Part shown: positions 5,318 through 36,385 of the stretch, one piece after another
Position numbering within the stretch: position 1 is the stretch's first letter
How the letters are laid out: each line of letters opens with the position of its first letter
Origin: Desulfurobacterium indicum
GTDB lineage: Bacteria > Aquificota > Aquificia > Desulfurobacteriales > Desulfurobacteriaceae
DNA: 45,416 bases
Reading direction: 5' to 3'
NCBI RefSeq assembly: GCF_001968985.1
Contig: NZ_MOEN01000013.1
Span: 1-45,416, forward strand
Notes under the pieces: generated by a model
The model's input: only the letters and a program-made list of their open reading frames with translations
Told to the model about the DNA's origin: nothing
The model's database searches: none
Program-made: the position numbers and the translations under genes

Positions 5318-6538
5318 ATGGAAAAGAAAAGGGGCATACCTGTAAGTTACAAAGAGATAGGGTATTTGCTTGAAAAACTTATTCTCCCGCTTGGCGGTTC
5401 CTGTATTATTTTGGATGAAAACAAAAAAGTTCGTTATGTAACAAGACTGTCTCCTCTTTGCAATATACTGAAAAAGCAAGACGAGAAAATGTGCAGAGAA
5501 TTTTTATCTGAAAACTTTAAAAGAGCACAGGAAACGAAAGAGCCCTTCACAACAAAGTGTCCAATAGGGAAACTTGTCTATGTCATCCCTATTTACATAG
5601 ACGGAAAATTTAAAGGTATAGGAACAGGCTCAATAGGTGTAGCCAGTTTTTCAAGAAGGAGAAGAAGAAAACTCATAGAAATAGCGCGAAAAGCAAACAT
5701 TCCCGAAAGCAAACTGTTAAAACTTGCCGAAGAAGAATTCCTGAACAAAAGGTATTTAATATCAAGCAACCGTAATATCTTTTTCAGAGAGATAAAAGAT
5801 ACCGAATGTGTAATGAAAGCCCTACGAAGGTTTTTAGAAGTGCTTAAAATAAGAATTGCTATAAAAAAAAATTCTCCTCAATGTTGTTATACATATGATC
5901 TTATGGACGCAATAGAATATCTTATTGCCGGAAATTTTAGTCCATCTCCTGAAAAGTTTAACGAAAAAAATGAAAGAGATTTACTGTTAAAACTGGTAGA
6001 GCTTGCTAAAAAAACGTGCAGAGAAATGTTAAAAGTAACAATGTCCGAATCAATAAGATGGAAAGCATACCACGACAGTTTGACAGGTGTTTACAACAGA
6101 TATGTCCTGGAAGAAGAACTGAAAAAGATAAGAGAACTGCGACTTGTCCCTGTAGCATTTATCCTGGTAGATATGGATGATTTAAAAAAAATCAACGACA
6201 ACTACGGCCATGAAATGGGGGATAAAGCCATATATGCGGTTGCAAAAGCCGTTAAATCGGCAGTAAGAAGAAATGATGTTGTTGTCAGGATAGGCGGTGA
6301 TGAATTCATAATAGTCCTACCCGGCATTACAGAAAGAGAAGTAAAAGAGATAATAGAAAGAATAGAGGAAAATGTTGCCAAGTCAGCATCGATATTCGGA
6401 CTGCCGTTTAATCTAAGCGTATCCATAGGATATGAAATTCTTAAAGCTTATGAAGACCCTGAAGAAGCCATACTAAGAGCAGATAAGAACATGTATAAAT
6501 GTAAAAAGTGCAGGAAGAACGGCAACGGTAAATTTTAA
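5318..6538 (+). CDS. diguanylate cyclase with N-terminal PocR-like sensor
   Basis: The 406-residue soluble protein should make cyclic di-GMP from two GTP. The C-terminal GGDEF domain (about 245-400) has an intact active site GGDEF (326-330), the metal Asp in FILVDMDDLKKIND, and a product-inhibition site R317-x2-D320 five residues before the GGDEF. The N-terminal 140 residues resemble a PocR domain: three spaced cysteines (C48, C59, C81) and the pattern CPIGKLVYVIPIYIDGKFKGIGTGSIG. PocR domains are thought to bind small ligands. A Cys pair (C189, C190) and CKKC near the end are further possible redox or metal sites. There are no membrane segments. Its last 4 bases overlap the convergent neighbour. 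The sensor assignment is by eye. Confidence 0.85.
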   Translation: MEKKRGIPVSYKEIGYLLEKLILPLGGSCIILDENKKVRYVTRLSPLCNILKKQDEKMCREFLSENFKRAQETKEPFTTKCPIGKLVYVIPIYIDGKFKGIGTGSIGVASFSRRRRRKLIEIARKANIPESKLLKLAEEEFLNKRYLISSNRNIFFREIKDTECVMKALRRFLEVLKIRIAIKKNSPQCCYTYDLMDAIEYLIAGNFSPSPEKFNEKNERDLLLKLVELAKKTCREMLKVTMSESIRWKAYHDSLTGVYNRYVLEEELKKIRELRLVPVAFILVDMDDLKKINDNYGHEMGDKAIYAVAKAVKSAVRRNDVVVRIGGDEFIIVLPGITEREVKEIIERIEENVAKSASIFGLPFNLSVSIGYEILKAYEDPEEAILRADKNMYKCKKCRKNGNGKF

Positions 6539-7785
6539 CTTTCCTTTAACCTCAATTTCTTTATGCGCCTTTTGTCTACATCGGCAACTTCAATCGTAAG
6601 ATCATGAAATTTTATTTTTTCACCTTTTTTTGGAAATCTGCCCAAAGTTTTTAAAACAAAGCCAGCAATCGTTATATAATCTGCTTTTGAAGGAAGAGAA
6701 GTTTTCAAGTACCTGTTTATCTCATTTATCTCTACTGAACCGTCAACGACTAAAGAACCGTCAGAAAGCTTATTTACAAGTGGATGTTCACCTCCAAACT
6801 CATCATCAATCCTTCCAACTATCTCCTCAAGTATATCCTCAATGGTAACTATCCCCAAAGTGGAACCAAACTCATCAACAACAACAGCCATCTGAGTTTT
6901 TGCTCTTCTTAACTCTTTCAAAGCATCAATAAGGCTCATATATTCAGGAAGAACAAGAATAGGCCGCAAGAAGTTTTTAACAGAGGCAAACTTATCATTT
7001 GCATCAAGAAGGTCAGTTATCAATATATAGCCTACAATATCATCAAACCGCTCCCTATAAACGGGCAATTTTGAAAATCCAGTTTTATTAAAGAGTTTTA
7101 AAGCCTCTTTTACACGGGAATTCATATTAACAGCAACTACATTTACCAGCGGAACATAAATATCACCTAACGTCTTCTCTTTCAAACGAAGAACATTTTT
7201 AAGTATTTTTCTCTCGGTTTTTTCAAAAGCAGAACGGGAAGCACTCTCAACCAGAAGTTCAAGCTCCTCCTTCGTAACAAAAGGATTTTTCTTTGTTTCT
7301 TCACCAAAAAGGTTTGTTAAAAATCCCGCAACAAAAGTAATAAGCAATGTTAAAGGCCTAAAGAGCCTGTGAAAGAAATAGAGAGGGTAAACTATCTTAA
7401 AAGCAACTTTATCTGAATATTTCTGAAACAAACTTTTAGGAATGAGCTCTCCAAAGGTAATTGTAAGAGGCGTAAGTGTAGCTACCGTAAAAAGCTCAGG
7501 ATATTTCCCGATAAAAGGATATGTTGAAGATGCACTATCTATAACAAAAGCCGTGAAAAGCGTTGCAGCAGAAACAGTAGATATGTTCGTTCCAACTAAA
7601 GTAGTAGCAAGAATCTTCTCTGGTTCTTTCAAAAGCTGATTCAACAAAACTGCAGCCCTATCACCTCTTTTAAGGCGCTTTTTCAGCTCAACACGACTAA
7701 CAGAAATAATGGCTATCTCGCTTCCCGAAAAAAACGCTTCAAATGCAACACAAATTAAGATCGCAACTATGTAAAAGCCACTCAC
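6535..7785 (-). CDS. CNNM/CorC-family membrane protein with CBS pair (second of tandem)
   Basis: The 416-residue protein has an N-terminal CNNM (DUF21) membrane domain (about 1-190, opening with hydrophobic helix FYIVAILICVAFEAFF and SGSEIAIISVSR), a CBS pair (about 205-330, ending VVDEFGSTLGIVTIEDILEEIVG), and the C-terminal CorC/HlyC domain (about 340-410). The family is often named hemolysin but is linked to Mg2+ and Co2+ efflux or homeostasis, with nucleotide binding by the CBS pair. The start is GTG, placed directly after the TGA of the upstream paralogue, with GGAGAGAG as ribosome site inside that gene, so the two are coupled. Its stop overlaps the convergent cyclase gene by 4 nt. Confidence 0.9.
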   Translation of the reverse strand: MSGFYIVAILICVAFEAFFSGSEIAIISVSRVELKKRLKRGDRAAVLLNQLLKEPEKILATTLVGTNISTVSAATLFTAFVIDSASSTYPFIGKYPELFTVATLTPLTITFGELIPKSLFQKYSDKVAFKIVYPLYFFHRLFRPLTLLITFVAGFLTNLFGEETKKNPFVTKEELELLVESASRSAFEKTERKILKNVLRLKEKTLGDIYVPLVNVVAVNMNSRVKEALKLFNKTGFSKLPVYRERFDDIVGYILITDLLDANDKFASVKNFLRPILVLPEYMSLIDALKELRRAKTQMAVVVDEFGSTLGIVTIEDILEEIVGRIDDEFGGEHPLVNKLSDGSLVVDGSVEINEINRYLKTSLPSKADYITIAGFVLKTLGRFPKKGEKIKFHDLTIEVADVDKRRIKKLRLKES

Positions 7786-9060
7786 TCACTCTCTCTCCAC
7801 TATTATAGATTTAATCCTGTTACCTTCCATCCTTTCCACTTTTAGCCTGAGACCGTTCCACTCTACGCTGTCTCCCTTTTTAGGAATCCTATCAAGAAGT
7901 CTCATAACAAGTCCACCGACAGTATCGACATCCTTTTCTTCTTCTGTTATTTCATCAATGCCGAAAAAGTCTTTAAAATCTTCTATACTAACACTTGGAT
8001 TAACTCTGTATTTCTTATTTTCTATCTTTTCAAAATCTTTCTCTTCCGTCTGCCTCTCATCAGGAATTTCACCAATAAGAGAAGAAAGAATATCATCAAG
8101 AGTAACAATTCCAGCTGTATTTCCATACTCATCAACAACTATTGCAAGGTGTTTTTTCTTCCTCTGCATTTCCTCAAGAAGATCGTCGATCTCTTTAAAC
8201 TCCGGAACGAAAAAGGGTTTATCTGTAAATTCAACAACGGGTCTTTCAAAGTCCTCATCTTTCAACTGAATAGGAATAATCTTCCGCGTATAAAGAATGC
8301 CTTTTATATCATCAAGGTCTTTACCATAAACCGGAATACGAGAAAACCGTCTCTTTTTAATCTCATTCAAAGCGTCCTTTACTTTCATATCGGCAGGAAG
8401 AGCAAAAACTTCGTGCTTGGGAACCATTATTTCTTTAACATCACTTTCGTCAAGGTCAAGAGTCCGATCAATTAAATCCTTCTCTTCTTTAGCAATCACT
8501 CCTTCCTTTGCCCCCTCCTCAACCAGAATCATAAACTCTTCGTCGGAAATGACTTTTTGCTCGCTGAAAAGTTCAATACTAAAAGGTTTCAAAATTAAAG
8601 AAACAAACGTAATAAGAACAGCTCTTATCGGCGTGAGAACAAAACTTACAAGTTTTATAAATCTCACAACAAAAAATGCATATTTTTCGCTGTATTTAAC
8701 GGCAAAAGTTTTCGGAGTAACCTCTCCAAAAAGCAGAAGAGCAATAACCGTAGAAGGAACAGCGTATATGGAACCTCTCTCTCCGAAAAGATCCATGAAA
8801 AGAAGGGCTGCTGTTGAAGAAATGGCAATGTTGACCATTTCATTACCTATAAGAATTGTTGCTATGAGCTCGGCAGGATTTTGCAGAAAATTGTAGATTT
8901 CCTTTGCTGTCTTATCACCTGCAAGAGCAAGTCTCTCTAACCTTAAACGATTAAGAGAAAAGAAAGCCGTTTCAGAAGCGGAAAAAAGGGCCGAGAAAAG
9001 CAGGAGAACCGCCAGAATCAGCCCTTCTGTTATTACGCTACTACCACCGCCCGGGTCCAT
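7786..9060 (-). CDS. CNNM/CorC-family membrane protein with CBS pair (first of tandem)
   Basis: The 424-residue paralogue of the next gene on this strand has the same order: CNNM membrane domain (about 10-190, with LFSASETAFFSLNRLRLERLA), CBS pair (about 205-330, with VVDEYGNTAGIVTLDDILSSLIGEIPDE), and C-terminal CorC/HlyC domain (about 345-420). The role is likely divalent-cation efflux or homeostasis at the inner membrane. It follows yidC by 3 nt and touches its paralogue without a gap, so the pair lies in the yidC transcript or close to it. Two adjacent copies suggest a hetero-oligomer or different ions. The ribosome-binding site (GGAG, 10 nt away) is weak. Confidence 0.9.
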   Translation of the reverse strand: MDPGGGSSVITEGLILAVLLLFSALFSASETAFFSLNRLRLERLALAGDKTAKEIYNFLQNPAELIATILIGNEMVNIAISSTAALLFMDLFGERGSIYAVPSTVIALLLFGEVTPKTFAVKYSEKYAFFVVRFIKLVSFVLTPIRAVLITFVSLILKPFSIELFSEQKVISDEEFMILVEEGAKEGVIAKEEKDLIDRTLDLDESDVKEIMVPKHEVFALPADMKVKDALNEIKKRRFSRIPVYGKDLDDIKGILYTRKIIPIQLKDEDFERPVVEFTDKPFFVPEFKEIDDLLEEMQRKKKHLAIVVDEYGNTAGIVTLDDILSSLIGEIPDERQTEEKDFEKIENKKYRVNPSVSIEDFKDFFGIDEITEEEKDVDTVGGLVMRLLDRIPKKGDSVEWNGLRLKVERMEGNRIKSIIVERE

Positions 9061-11397: not shown

Positions 11398-12975
11398 TCA
11401 AATACGTTCATCCAGTTTCAAAAACTGCCTTGCCATCTTTAACATCAATCTTCTCTCTTCGGAAGCAACAACTTTTTTTAAATAAACGATCTCGTCAGGA
11501 TGAACAACAATAAAGTCAAAACCAGAACGGACAAGCTCCCTTACGAGAGAAAGATTGGGTGAAAGAATCGAACCTTCATCTGTAAAAAGCTTTCCGTAAG
11601 CACCCTTGAATACACTGCCGGTTATAAAAGGAGTCTCCTCTTTTATAAAAGATGGAACGTCATGAACGATCAAAACGCCGTCGGTTGCAACCCAGACATT
11701 CGTAAAACCTTTATTCCTTGCTTCTCTAACAGCATTAATCTCCTCTTTATTACGAACACTTACAACAACAGGTTTCGGAAAAGCGGCTTCGGCCGTCTCA
11801 AGCAACACCTTCTCAAACATCTCACCTATAACACCTGAAATATTAAAGTAAATGCCGTCGCACGGAAGAAAGCTAATCGTCCTTGCAATATCCACATCCG
11901 TCACCTCGGCAAGAATCCTAACACCTGTTGGATAAAACGGCGCCTCTTCCAGAACGGAAAGTTTTCTTAAAAGTTCTCTCTTCTCCTTCAGTCCAACCAC
12001 CGAAATATCTGTAAAAAACGGCCTCCCGTCTTTTGAAATAACAAAATCAAGCTTTATGGTTCTGCTAAAGTTCTTCTCTATAGAAAGGGCAAGTTTTGCT
12101 AAAACAAGAACCTCTTCATCAGAAAGACTTGCCATTAAAGCTCTATCATCGGAAATTTCAAATTCGGTAATATTACCAGTTTCAGAATCTATAGAAAGCT
12201 CCGTATATTTTCTAACAATCTCCTTTTTTATTCTCCAGAACTCAAACGTTTCCTTATCAACTCTATATTTATCAAGATTCAGTTTATTACCTTTTATATA
12301 TCCACATATTCCCCAGCTCGATTCTATAATAACAGTATTATCACCGGTCAACGGATCGGAAGAATAAAGGAATCCAGAACTTCTCGCATCTATCATCTCC
12401 GAAACTATTGCTATATCTCCCATATCCTTCACTATCTGCAAAACAGCCTTTCTAAGTTTTTCAAAAGAAGATATATTAAAAAAGGTAACTCTCCCCTCTT
12501 TTTTTCCGGTTTTAGCAATAAACCTGCTTGCTCCTGACTTCTCTTTTAAAAGTCTAAATCCTTTTTCAATTTCATCTTCCGAAGCTTCCGGGAAAACAAC
12601 AATACCTGCCGGAACCGGCGCACCGCTTGCAACAAGAACTCCAAAATCGTCAAGCTCTTCTGGACCTCTCCTAACTATTTCTTCTATAAAGATGACATTA
12701 CGTAAACCTGTTTTTAACGTTAAAAGCTCCTTTATCCTACCAACAGAAACAGATATTTTCAAAAGAGACAATCTTCTCACTATAGATTCATGAACTCTCC
12801 TTATCTCTTCATCTATAGACTTCTCATCAGGTTCGTCTTCCATTCTCAAAACAGTTTGCCCACCTTGAAAAAGAAGTGTTATCACTTTACCCGACGATTG
12901 ATAAAATTCCGTCTGAACATGAAAATCCCCCACACCAGTTCTAACATTTGTATTTAAACTCCTAACACTCTTCAT
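11398..12975 (-). CDS. degenerate PEP-synthase-like protein, no phosphohistidine domain
   Basis: The 525-residue product starts with a small domain (about 1-75, NVRTGVGDFHVQTEFYQSSGK). Next is a PPDK_N-like ATP-binding region (about 105-330): SGAPVPAGIVVFPE, SEMIDARSSGFLYSSDPLTG, then a GICGYIKG stretch and LDKYRVDK, as in PEP synthase. The swivelling domain with the catalytic His (GG-T-SHAA type) is missing. Instead the protein goes straight to a shortened copy of the C-terminal barrel: PTGVRILAEVTDVDIARTISFL resembles its start and GFDFIVVHPDEIVYLKKVVASEE its end, while the centre is gone. It probably cannot make PEP; a binding or regulatory role is inferred. The start at 12975 has CAGGAGG 6 nt upstream; an ATG five codons earlier would contain that site. 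Confidence 0.7.
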   Translation of the reverse strand: MKSVRSLNTNVRTGVGDFHVQTEFYQSSGKVITLLFQGGQTVLRMEDEPDEKSIDEEIRRVHESIVRRLSLLKISVSVGRIKELLTLKTGLRNVIFIEEIVRRGPEELDDFGVLVASGAPVPAGIVVFPEASEDEIEKGFRLLKEKSGASRFIAKTGKKEGRVTFFNISSFEKLRKAVLQIVKDMGDIAIVSEMIDARSSGFLYSSDPLTGDNTVIIESSWGICGYIKGNKLNLDKYRVDKETFEFWRIKKEIVRKYTELSIDSETGNITEFEISDDRALMASLSDEEVLVLAKLALSIEKNFSRTIKLDFVISKDGRPFFTDISVVGLKEKRELLRKLSVLEEAPFYPTGVRILAEVTDVDIARTISFLPCDGIYFNISGVIGEMFEKVLLETAEAAFPKPVVVSVRNKEEINAVREARNKGFTNVWVATDGVLIVHDVPSFIKEETPFITGSVFKGAYGKLFTDEGSILSPNLSLVRELVRSGFDFIVVHPDEIVYLKKVVASEERRLMLKMARQFLKLDERI

Positions 12976-13038
12976 GTTTTCCTCCTGCATTTAATTAAAT
13001 ATAGCATATATTTGAAGCAACTTTATATCATATACCCC

Positions 13039-33700: not shown

Positions 33701-36385
33701 ATGGCTAAAAGAGTCTATTTCTTTGGAAACGGAAGGGCGGACGGAACCGCACAGATGAAAGATCTGCTGGGCGGCAAAGGTGCAAATCTTGCCGAAATGA
33801 CAAACCTCGGATTACCTGTTCCACCAGGTATTACGATAACAACCGAAGTATGTAAAGAATACTTCCAGCTCGGGCAACAATTCCCCGAAGGACTGTGGGA
33901 AGAAATCCTAGAAGGAATGAAAAAGATTGAAGAGGTTGTTGGCAAAAAATTCGGTGACAGAAAGATACCACTTCTTGTTGCCGTTCGTTCAGGTGCTCCT
34001 GTATCAATGCCTGGAATGATGGACACCATTCTCAACCTTGGCCTTAACGACGAATCCGTAGAAGGCCTTGCTGAAAGCACCGGAAATGAAAGATTTGCAT
34101 GGGACTCATACAGAAGATTTATCCAGATGTTTGGTAACGTCGTTATGGGCATTCCTCATGAGAAATTCGAGGAAATTCTGGAAGCAAAAAAAGAAGAAGT
34201 CGGAGCAAAAGCTGACATAGACCTTACGGCCGAAGATTTCAAAGATATCGTTAAAAAATACAAAGAGATGGTAAAAAGGGAAACTGGACAGGAGTTCCCT
34301 CAAGACCCTTATAAACAACTTGAAATGGCAGTAAGAGCCGTATTCGATTCATGGAACAACCCAAGAGCCATAAGATACAGAGAGATCAATAAGATCCCGG
34401 AAGATTACGGAACGGCCGTTAACGTCGTTGCAATGGTTTTCGGAAACATGGGAGATACCTCAGGAACAGGTGTTGCATTTACGCGTAACCCATCAACAGG
34501 AGAAAACGAATTCTACGGCGAATACTTAAAAAACGCTCAGGGAGAGGACGTTGTTGCAGGTATAAGAACGCCACAACCACTTAGAAAGTCACAAAAAACA
34601 GACGAATCCCAGGTATCTCTCGAAGAGGAATTTCCGGAAGTATACAAAGAGCTTGAAAGAATCAGAGACATTCTAGAAAAACACTACAGAGACATGCAAG
34701 ACATAGAATTTACAATAGAAAACGGCAAGCTTTACATGCTTCAGACAAGAACAGGTAAAAGAACTGCCAGAGCAGCCGTAAAAATTGCAGTTGACCTTGT
34801 AAAAGAAGGACTCATAACAAAAGAAGAAGCCATAATGAGAATAGATCCTTCTCTCATCAACCAGCTTCTCCATCCAATGATTGATGAAGAAGACAAGAAA
34901 AGAGCTATCGCAGAAGGAAGACTTATTACAAAAGGTCTTCCTGCTGCTCCGGGTGCAGTATCTGGTAAAGTTGTCTTCTCAGCTGATGAAGCTGTTGAAA
35001 TGAAAGAGAAAGGCGAAAAAGTAATCCTTGTAAGACATGAAACATCACCGGAAGACATCCACGGAATGCACGCTGCAGAAGGTATATTAACGGCAAGAGG
35101 TGGAATGACATCCCACGCTGCCGTCGTTGCAAGAGGTATGGGTAAAACGTGTATTGTCGGTGCAGAAACAATAACTGTCGATTACGACAGGCAGGAATTT
35201 CGTGTCGGTGATATCGTCGTCAAAAAAGGTGATATCATAACCATTGATGGCTCAACCGGCGAAATTTTCCACGGTGAAATCAAAACCATTCCAGCAAATA
35301 TTTCAGGTGAATTTGAAGAGCTCATGAAGTGGGCTGACGAAATAAGAGACCTCAAGGTAAGAGTAAACGCCGACACACCGGAAGACGCTCTTCAGGGAAG
35401 AAAGTTTGGTGCCGAAGGTATAGGACTCTGCAGAACAGAACACATGTTCTTCAACGAAGACAGAATTCCAGTTGTTAGAGAAATGATCCTTGCAAAGACA
35501 AAAGAAGAAAGAGAAAAAGCACTTAAAAAACTTCTGCCGATGCAAAGAAGTGACTTCAAGGCAATCTTTGAAGTTATGGACGGACTACCTGTCAACATAA
35601 GGCTTCTCGACCCACCACTTCACGAATTCCTTCCAAAAACAGAAGAAGAGTTTGAAAAGACAGCAAAAGAGATGGGACTCTCTGTTGAAGAGATAAAGAA
35701 AAGAGCAGAAGAACTTCACGAAGTTAATCCGATGCTCGGACTTAGAGGTTCAAGACTTGGCATAGCTTACCCTGAAATCTACGAAATGCAAGTAAGGGCA
35801 ATCATAGAAGCCGCCTGTGAATGCAAAAAAGAAGGCATCGACGTAAAACCTGAAATAATGCTACCTCTAATTGCCGATGACAGGGAACTTGCAGAACTTA
35901 AAAAAATGATAGACAGAGTTGCCGCCGAAGTTTTCGTAGAAACAGGCGTTGAAGTCCCTTATCAGGTAGGAACAATGATAGAAATTCCGAGAGCTGCACT
36001 TATAGCAGATCAGCTTGCAAGAGACGCCGAATACTTCTCATTCGGAACAAACGACCTTACACAGATGACTTTCGGACTTTCAAGAGACGATGCTGGCAAA
36101 TTCATAGGAAAATATGTAGAAAAAGGCATCCTAAAAGGCGATCCTTTCATGCATATTGATGAAAACGGAGTAGGCCAGCTCATAAAGATAGCGATAGAAA
36201 AAGGAAACAAAACAAGACCCGGCATTAAAACAGGTGTCTGCGGTGAGCACGGCGGTGATCCTCGTTCTATTAACTTCTTCCAGCAGATAGGAATCCAGTA
36301 TGTAAGTCCTTCTCCTTTCAGAGTTCCTATAGCAAGACTTGCAGCGGCACAGGCAAAGATTAGATTAAGTAATAAGCAAAATTAA
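33701..36385 (+). CDS. ppdK: pyruvate, phosphate dikinase
   Basis: The 894-residue enzyme interconverts pyruvate, ATP and Pi with PEP, AMP and PPi. It has the ATP-binding N-terminal domain (GGKGANLAEMTNLGLPVPPG, VRSGAPVSMPGMMDTILNLG), the swivelling domain with the phospho-His in ARGGMTSHAAVVARGMGK, and the C-terminal barrel (LLDPPLHEFLP, GVCGEHGGDPRSI with the catalytic Cys). Its full length and the SMPGMMDT motif separate it from PEP synthase. It probably serves gluconeogenesis from pyruvate in an autotroph. It follows glyS by 11 nt, an unusual link to translation genes. Confidence 0.95.
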   Translation: MAKRVYFFGNGRADGTAQMKDLLGGKGANLAEMTNLGLPVPPGITITTEVCKEYFQLGQQFPEGLWEEILEGMKKIEEVVGKKFGDRKIPLLVAVRSGAPVSMPGMMDTILNLGLNDESVEGLAESTGNERFAWDSYRRFIQMFGNVVMGIPHEKFEEILEAKKEEVGAKADIDLTAEDFKDIVKKYKEMVKRETGQEFPQDPYKQLEMAVRAVFDSWNNPRAIRYREINKIPEDYGTAVNVVAMVFGNMGDTSGTGVAFTRNPSTGENEFYGEYLKNAQGEDVVAGIRTPQPLRKSQKTDESQVSLEEEFPEVYKELERIRDILEKHYRDMQDIEFTIENGKLYMLQTRTGKRTARAAVKIAVDLVKEGLITKEEAIMRIDPSLINQLLHPMIDEEDKKRAIAEGRLITKGLPAAPGAVSGKVVFSADEAVEMKEKGEKVILVRHETSPEDIHGMHAAEGILTARGGMTSHAAVVARGMGKTCIVGAETITVDYDRQEFRVGDIVVKKGDIITIDGSTGEIFHGEIKTIPANISGEFEELMKWADEIRDLKVRVNADTPEDALQGRKFGAEGIGLCRTEHMFFNEDRIPVVREMILAKTKEEREKALKKLLPMQRSDFKAIFEVMDGLPVNIRLLDPPLHEFLPKTEEEFEKTAKEMGLSVEEIKKRAEELHEVNPMLGLRGSRLGIAYPEIYEMQVRAIIEAACECKKEGIDVKPEIMLPLIADDRELAELKKMIDRVAAEVFVETGVEVPYQVGTMIEIPRAALIADQLARDAEYFSFGTNDLTQMTFGLSRDDAGKFIGKYVEKGILKGDPFMHIDENGVGQLIKIAIEKGNKTRPGIKTGVCGEHGGDPRSINFFQQIGIQYVSPSPFRVPIARLAAAQAKIRLSNKQN

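Follow-up and report, generated by a model that had tools for sequence, protein, structure and literature searches.

Which role is left to a protein that resembles PEP synthase and lacks most of what that enzyme works with? The question is raised by a 525-aa open reading frame on the minus strand of the window, that is, of the whole stretch of 45,416 nucleotides from Desulfurobacterium indicum analysed here. The gene is flanked by rpmH/rnpA on one side and by the divergent rplY on the other. Its product is here referred to as P0001, and its features are listed below together with a second enzyme of the window that served for comparison.

11398–12975, minus strand: complete coding sequence, 525 aa plus TGA; RomY_N-like domain and degenerate PEP-synthase half
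12980–12986, minus strand: Shine-Dalgarno sequence AGGAGGA before the ATG at 12975
12760–12975, minus strand: residues 1–72, RomY_N-like mobile domain; predicted four-stranded sheet and helix, pLDDT about 85
12412–12759, minus strand: residues 73–188, linker and remnant of a shrunken first ATP-grasp lobe; low model confidence
11986–12411, minus strand: residues 189–330, second lobe of the PPDK_N ATP-grasp, under the strongest constraint of all parts; ATP-site residues lost
11752–11928, minus strand: residues 350–408, start of the PEP-binding (TIM) barrel, from hhalign and the model
11566–11751, minus strand: residues 409–470, barrel centre, collapsed; lowest conservation within the closest pair
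11401–11565, minus strand: residues 471–525, final strand of the barrel, then a long C-terminal helix; identity to the two orthologues 85% and 69%
33701–36385, plus strand: intact PPDK (PPDK_N, PEP-utilizers, PEP-utilizers_C by Pfam); for comparison only, outside the system

The frame is intact and, as a preliminary description of this DNA had stated, well initiated: an AGGAGG placed 5 nt ahead of the ATG at 12975 gives a strong ribosome site, and both orthologues share this start position. Another ATG 15 nt upstream, at 12990, is a less likely start. Elsewhere in the window, positions 6535–9060 hold a tandem pair of CNNM/CBS/CorC genes.

A PEP-synthase half without its catalytic residues

PPDK_N (PF01326) is the sole Pfam match in P0001 (2.9e-17), and it joins residues 189–317 to only positions 169–298 of the 328 in the profile, which are the second lobe. 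Neither PEP-utilizers, the His domain (PF00391), nor PEP-utilizers_C (PF02896) was matched at E ≤ 10; in the same search the real ppdK at 33701–36385, taken as a control, matched all three domains. Comparison by hhalign with ten Aquificota PEP synthases gave three collinear pieces in P0001, namely the ATP-grasp second lobe (7e-9), the barrel start (2e-4) and the barrel end (0.0065). Moreover, phmmer matched residues 475–519, the C-terminal barrel end, to solved PEP synthases, of which 9dae and 8a8e match the PEP-synthase-like half at 2.8e-16 and 7.6e-16. By these alignments, the second lobe is the only part of the ATP-grasp that is convincingly left. The earlier claims that the phosphohistidine domain and the barrel centre are missing, that the barrel can be recognised at its beginning and its end and that a true ppdK lies 21 kb off (20.7 kb by our count) are all borne out.

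We scored individual residues in three orthologues aligned to PEP synthases. The motifs concerned include the GGK Lys, the VRSS Arg, the GLGE Glu, DxEW and QxRP, which we take to have the ATP-site roles that they have in PPDK. In all three orthologues gaps take the place of the GGK Lys, the VRSS Arg, the catalytic His and the GG.TSHAA region, while GLGE has become GICG or GIGG (Glu to Gly), DxEW has become K/R-x-D/A-F and QxRP is lost. In the barrel, the Arg of GLAREEF is replaced, the motifs GLxRxEF, SxNDLTQ and CGQ are absent or gapped in the orthologues with no match to PF02896, and 76 of the 158 columns that are invariant in ten Aquificota PEP synthases are gaps in all three. Since the residues of the ATP site, the His and the PEP site are lost, P0001 should have no activity as a PEP synthase or PPDK, and to judge from its sequence any phosphotransfer of that type is very improbable. 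The statement that ATP-binding motifs remain thus stands for the second lobe and fails for the ATP-site Lys, Arg, Glu and QxRP. Two functions suggested for the protein fare worse: nucleotide binding is opposed by the loss, or replacement by a gap, of all the PEP-synthase ATP-site residues checked, and modification of PpdK by the absence of the phosphotransfer residues and of any link to ppdK apart from the 21 kb distance.

A first AlphaFold model, built from three sequences, had a mean pLDDT of 48 and gave no significant fold match. The second, whose alignment included full-length PEP-synthase rows, reached 61 and matches PEP synthase and rifampin phosphotransferase, a match that was guided by the supplied rows and is not independent. 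In this model the second lobe takes the form of an ATP-grasp half (2.4 Å over 135 columns to the ATP domain of rifampin phosphotransferase), whereas the shrunken first lobe models poorly. Outside the N-domain, the second lobe and the barrel start the model is weak. Residues 1–72 form four strands and a helix in both models, with pLDDT of about 75 and 85.

The N-terminal domain and its MglA/MglB setting

A small extra domain at the N-terminus had been recognised in the preliminary description, which missed its identity as RomY_N and with it the main functional clue, the connection to RomY and MglA. The NCBIfam family RomY_Nterm (NF053858) is the sole named family matching this part of P0001, at 19.9 bits (E 7e-4) and below the family cut-off of 50 bits. 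Because some 20 bits stand against a curated cut-off of 50, the domain is, on this profile score, a divergent relative of RomY_Nterm. Its own relatives reach 8e-6 by protein and 1.7e-7 per genome, and none of the 14 control genomes was matched. By hhalign, the N-domains of the three orthologues align at 2.5e-8 with 13 Acidobacteriota sequences above the curated cut-off, and the whole vent family aligns at 2e-12 with canonical Acidobacteriota RomY_N, the canonical sequences of this comparison scoring above 100 bits. The profile alignments thus establish a common ancestry of the N-domain and canonical RomY_N, and both classes have the motif N-T-[DN]-V...[FY]HVQTE...(T)(L/I)(I/L)[FY]..G...H. Canonical RomY_N above the cut-off is present in 92 of 149 Acidobacteriota genomes; this phylum also has a second, vent-like class, and the two lie less than 3 kb apart in one genome (G262).

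Residues 3–71 also match two more proteins in the same genome and at least one protein in most Desulfurobacteriaceae. These proteins have the same N-domain followed by unrelated effector halves, including a receiver domain (L022), KPGKE repeats (L021) and FGIxA repeats, and the PEP-synthase part was found in none of those examined. In total, RomY_N occurs in 19 of 22 Desulfurobacteriaceae genomes (16 of the 16 good ones) and in 0 of the 114 other Aquificota genomes searched. A close MglA, at least 81% identical over its entire length, is present in 22 of 22 genomes of the family (in G010 as two pieces), and other Aquificota families have at most a relative of 37–50%.

The genome that carries P0001 has a canonical mglB-mglA pair (G000:C1:4515-5586), in which MglA, matching Myxococcus MglA at 5e-73, directly follows MglB (9e-24). 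The 525-aa gene is not close to this pair. Some other RomY_N genes of the family adjoin Pfam-confirmed roadblock genes, in three loci (L045, L046 and L133), the last of which, in G011 from a sister genus, is a cluster mglB2-orf-RomY_N-mglA2 (L133:1204-3066). The 121-aa RomY_N neighbour in L134 is roadblock-like by eye and has no Pfam match; L134 and the similar L135 were left out of the count. In this genome one RomY_N paralogue is the next gene after pilD, which encodes the prepilin peptidase, an order repeated in G002; another carries the receiver domain (L022).

Several further arrangements were observed. The pilD-RomY_N pairs lie at L047:7865-9250 and L076:3224-4411, the C-terminus in L047 being a KPGKE repeat. 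Sister genera have a single RomY_N gene divergent from a DUF4388-type gene (L050:7652-9346, L049, L051 and L065), the neighbour being Pfam-confirmed in L050 only. An Hmd-like gene (PF03201) directly followed by a roadblock gene (Robl_LC7) is present in two copies (L043:5353-6812 and L044:5093-6569, on C8 and C36 of G000), and one of these pairs adjoins radical-SAM and NIF3-type genes resembling Hmd cofactor genes.

Distribution and selection

The full architecture is found in three of four genomes of the window's genus and nowhere else among 136 Aquificota genomes. The two orthologues, with 77% and 47% identity to P0001, carry identical deletions, which rules out a local deletion or an assembly fault; homologues keeping the His domain would have pointed to the former, and both orthologues are without it. 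Two genomes agree in the strand of the gene, and in G003 it occupies the unchanged site in opposite orientation (L029:3609-5207 against 11398–12975 of the window). It is absent from G002, where the rplY-rpmH site is sequenced and empty. In a four-protein tree G002 and G003 group with a support of 100, and from this tree the simplest history of the fusion gene would be a single gain in the ancestor of the genus and a single loss.

For the closest pair, dN/dS is 0.066 overall, 0.048 in the second ATP-grasp lobe, the slowest-evolving part, and 0.16 in the N-domain, all being rough values as synonymous sites are near saturation. The low ratio argues that the C-terminal half is not junk. Together with an architecture common to three genomes, it also upholds the earlier view of a maintained protein with a new role, probably a regulatory one.

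A proposed regulator and its alternatives

RomY of M. xanthus, a protein of 188 aa whose C-terminal motif is short and partially conserved, stimulates the GAP activity of MglB, and its isolated N-terminal domain retains part of the RomY activity (PMC9481161). P0001 resembles it in the homologous N-domain with the NT[DN]V, [FY]HVQTE and G...H motif and in the MglA/MglB pair of its genome, but differs in having a C-terminus that is a 450-aa pseudo-PEP-synthase and a score under the curated cut-off of NF053858. To our knowledge, the co-GAP activity of RomY is known experimentally from Myxococcus only. With PEP synthase and PPDK (PF01326, PF00391, PF02896) P0001 shares the second ATP-grasp lobe and the barrel start and end; unlike them, it has a shrunken first lobe, no phosphohistidine domain, barrel centre or catalytic residues, and an added RomY_N domain.

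We consider P0001 to be, with fair probability, a RomY-like protein specific to the genus that would regulate the MglA/MglB switch or serve it as an adaptor, with a domesticated pseudo-PEP-synthase as its output or sensor half. By analogy with Myxococcus, residues 1–72 would most likely dock on MglB and/or MglA-GTP and tune the MglA GTPase cycle as RomY does. The C-terminal 450 residues, a PEP synthase minus phosphohistidine domain, active sites and barrel centre, would have been kept as a folded, non-catalytic module that binds a partner, location or ligand and sets the place or time of RomY_N action. The pseudo-enzyme half could also be the business end, with the RomY_N domain just an adaptor.

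A rather doubtful extension is that the half ATP-grasp binds nucleotide (or PEP) without catalysis and acts as an energy or carbon-status sensor for the MglA switch. The slow evolution of the second lobe and its modelling as an ATP-grasp half agree with this, but the fold match cannot count as independent, the reduced first lobe is poorly modelled, and the GGK Lys, VRSS Arg, GLGE Glu, DxEW and QxRP are lost in all three orthologues. A precedent is VadK (Rv1127c) of Mycobacterium, a PPDK-derived regulatory histidine kinase (PMC13400623) and likewise a truncated PPDK relative turned to regulation. However, VadK retains the ATP-binding and His domains and lacks the PEP domain, the opposite of the loss in P0001, which is without the His and ATP-site residues and keeps some of the barrel. 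Equally doubtful, in our view, is the idea that an MglA/MglB regulator uses the dead fold for sensing or as a scaffold, directly coupling central-carbon or energy status to a small-GTPase polarity or pilus switch.

Less probable still is a role as a subunit of the resident PEP synthase or PPDK, regulatory or dominant-negative, that RomY_N would tether or control. The barrel end and the second lobe would allow association with a true enzyme, few parts are conserved as well as the final barrel strand with the C-terminal helix (85% and 69% identity to the orthologues), and the genome has both a true PEP synthase (G000:C2) and the PPDK of the window. Yet the gene has no linkage with either, other vent genera have the same enzymes without the 525-aa protein, and the RomY_N domain is left unexplained. 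The resident PEP synthase is moreover a far poorer match (tblastn 2.2e-5) than 9dae and 8a8e, so that an origin from it is not favoured either. Finally, an enzyme fusion decaying into a pseudogene is highly improbable, since, despite large internal losses and the empty site in G002, the frame is intact in three genomes with the same deletions, the ribosome site is strong and the strong purifying selection (pN 0.14 against pS 0.72) contradicts it.

Our literature search for a PEP-synthase pseudoenzyme found no paper. In Aquificota, RomY_N appears as a swappable module joined to a receiver domain, to repeats or to a dead metabolic enzyme. If the RomY_N reading is true, the MglA co-regulator family would reach another phylum, and P0001, found in a deep-branching thermophile from vents that belongs to the Desulfurobacterium group, would be a testable example of an old enzyme fold put to new use in signalling.
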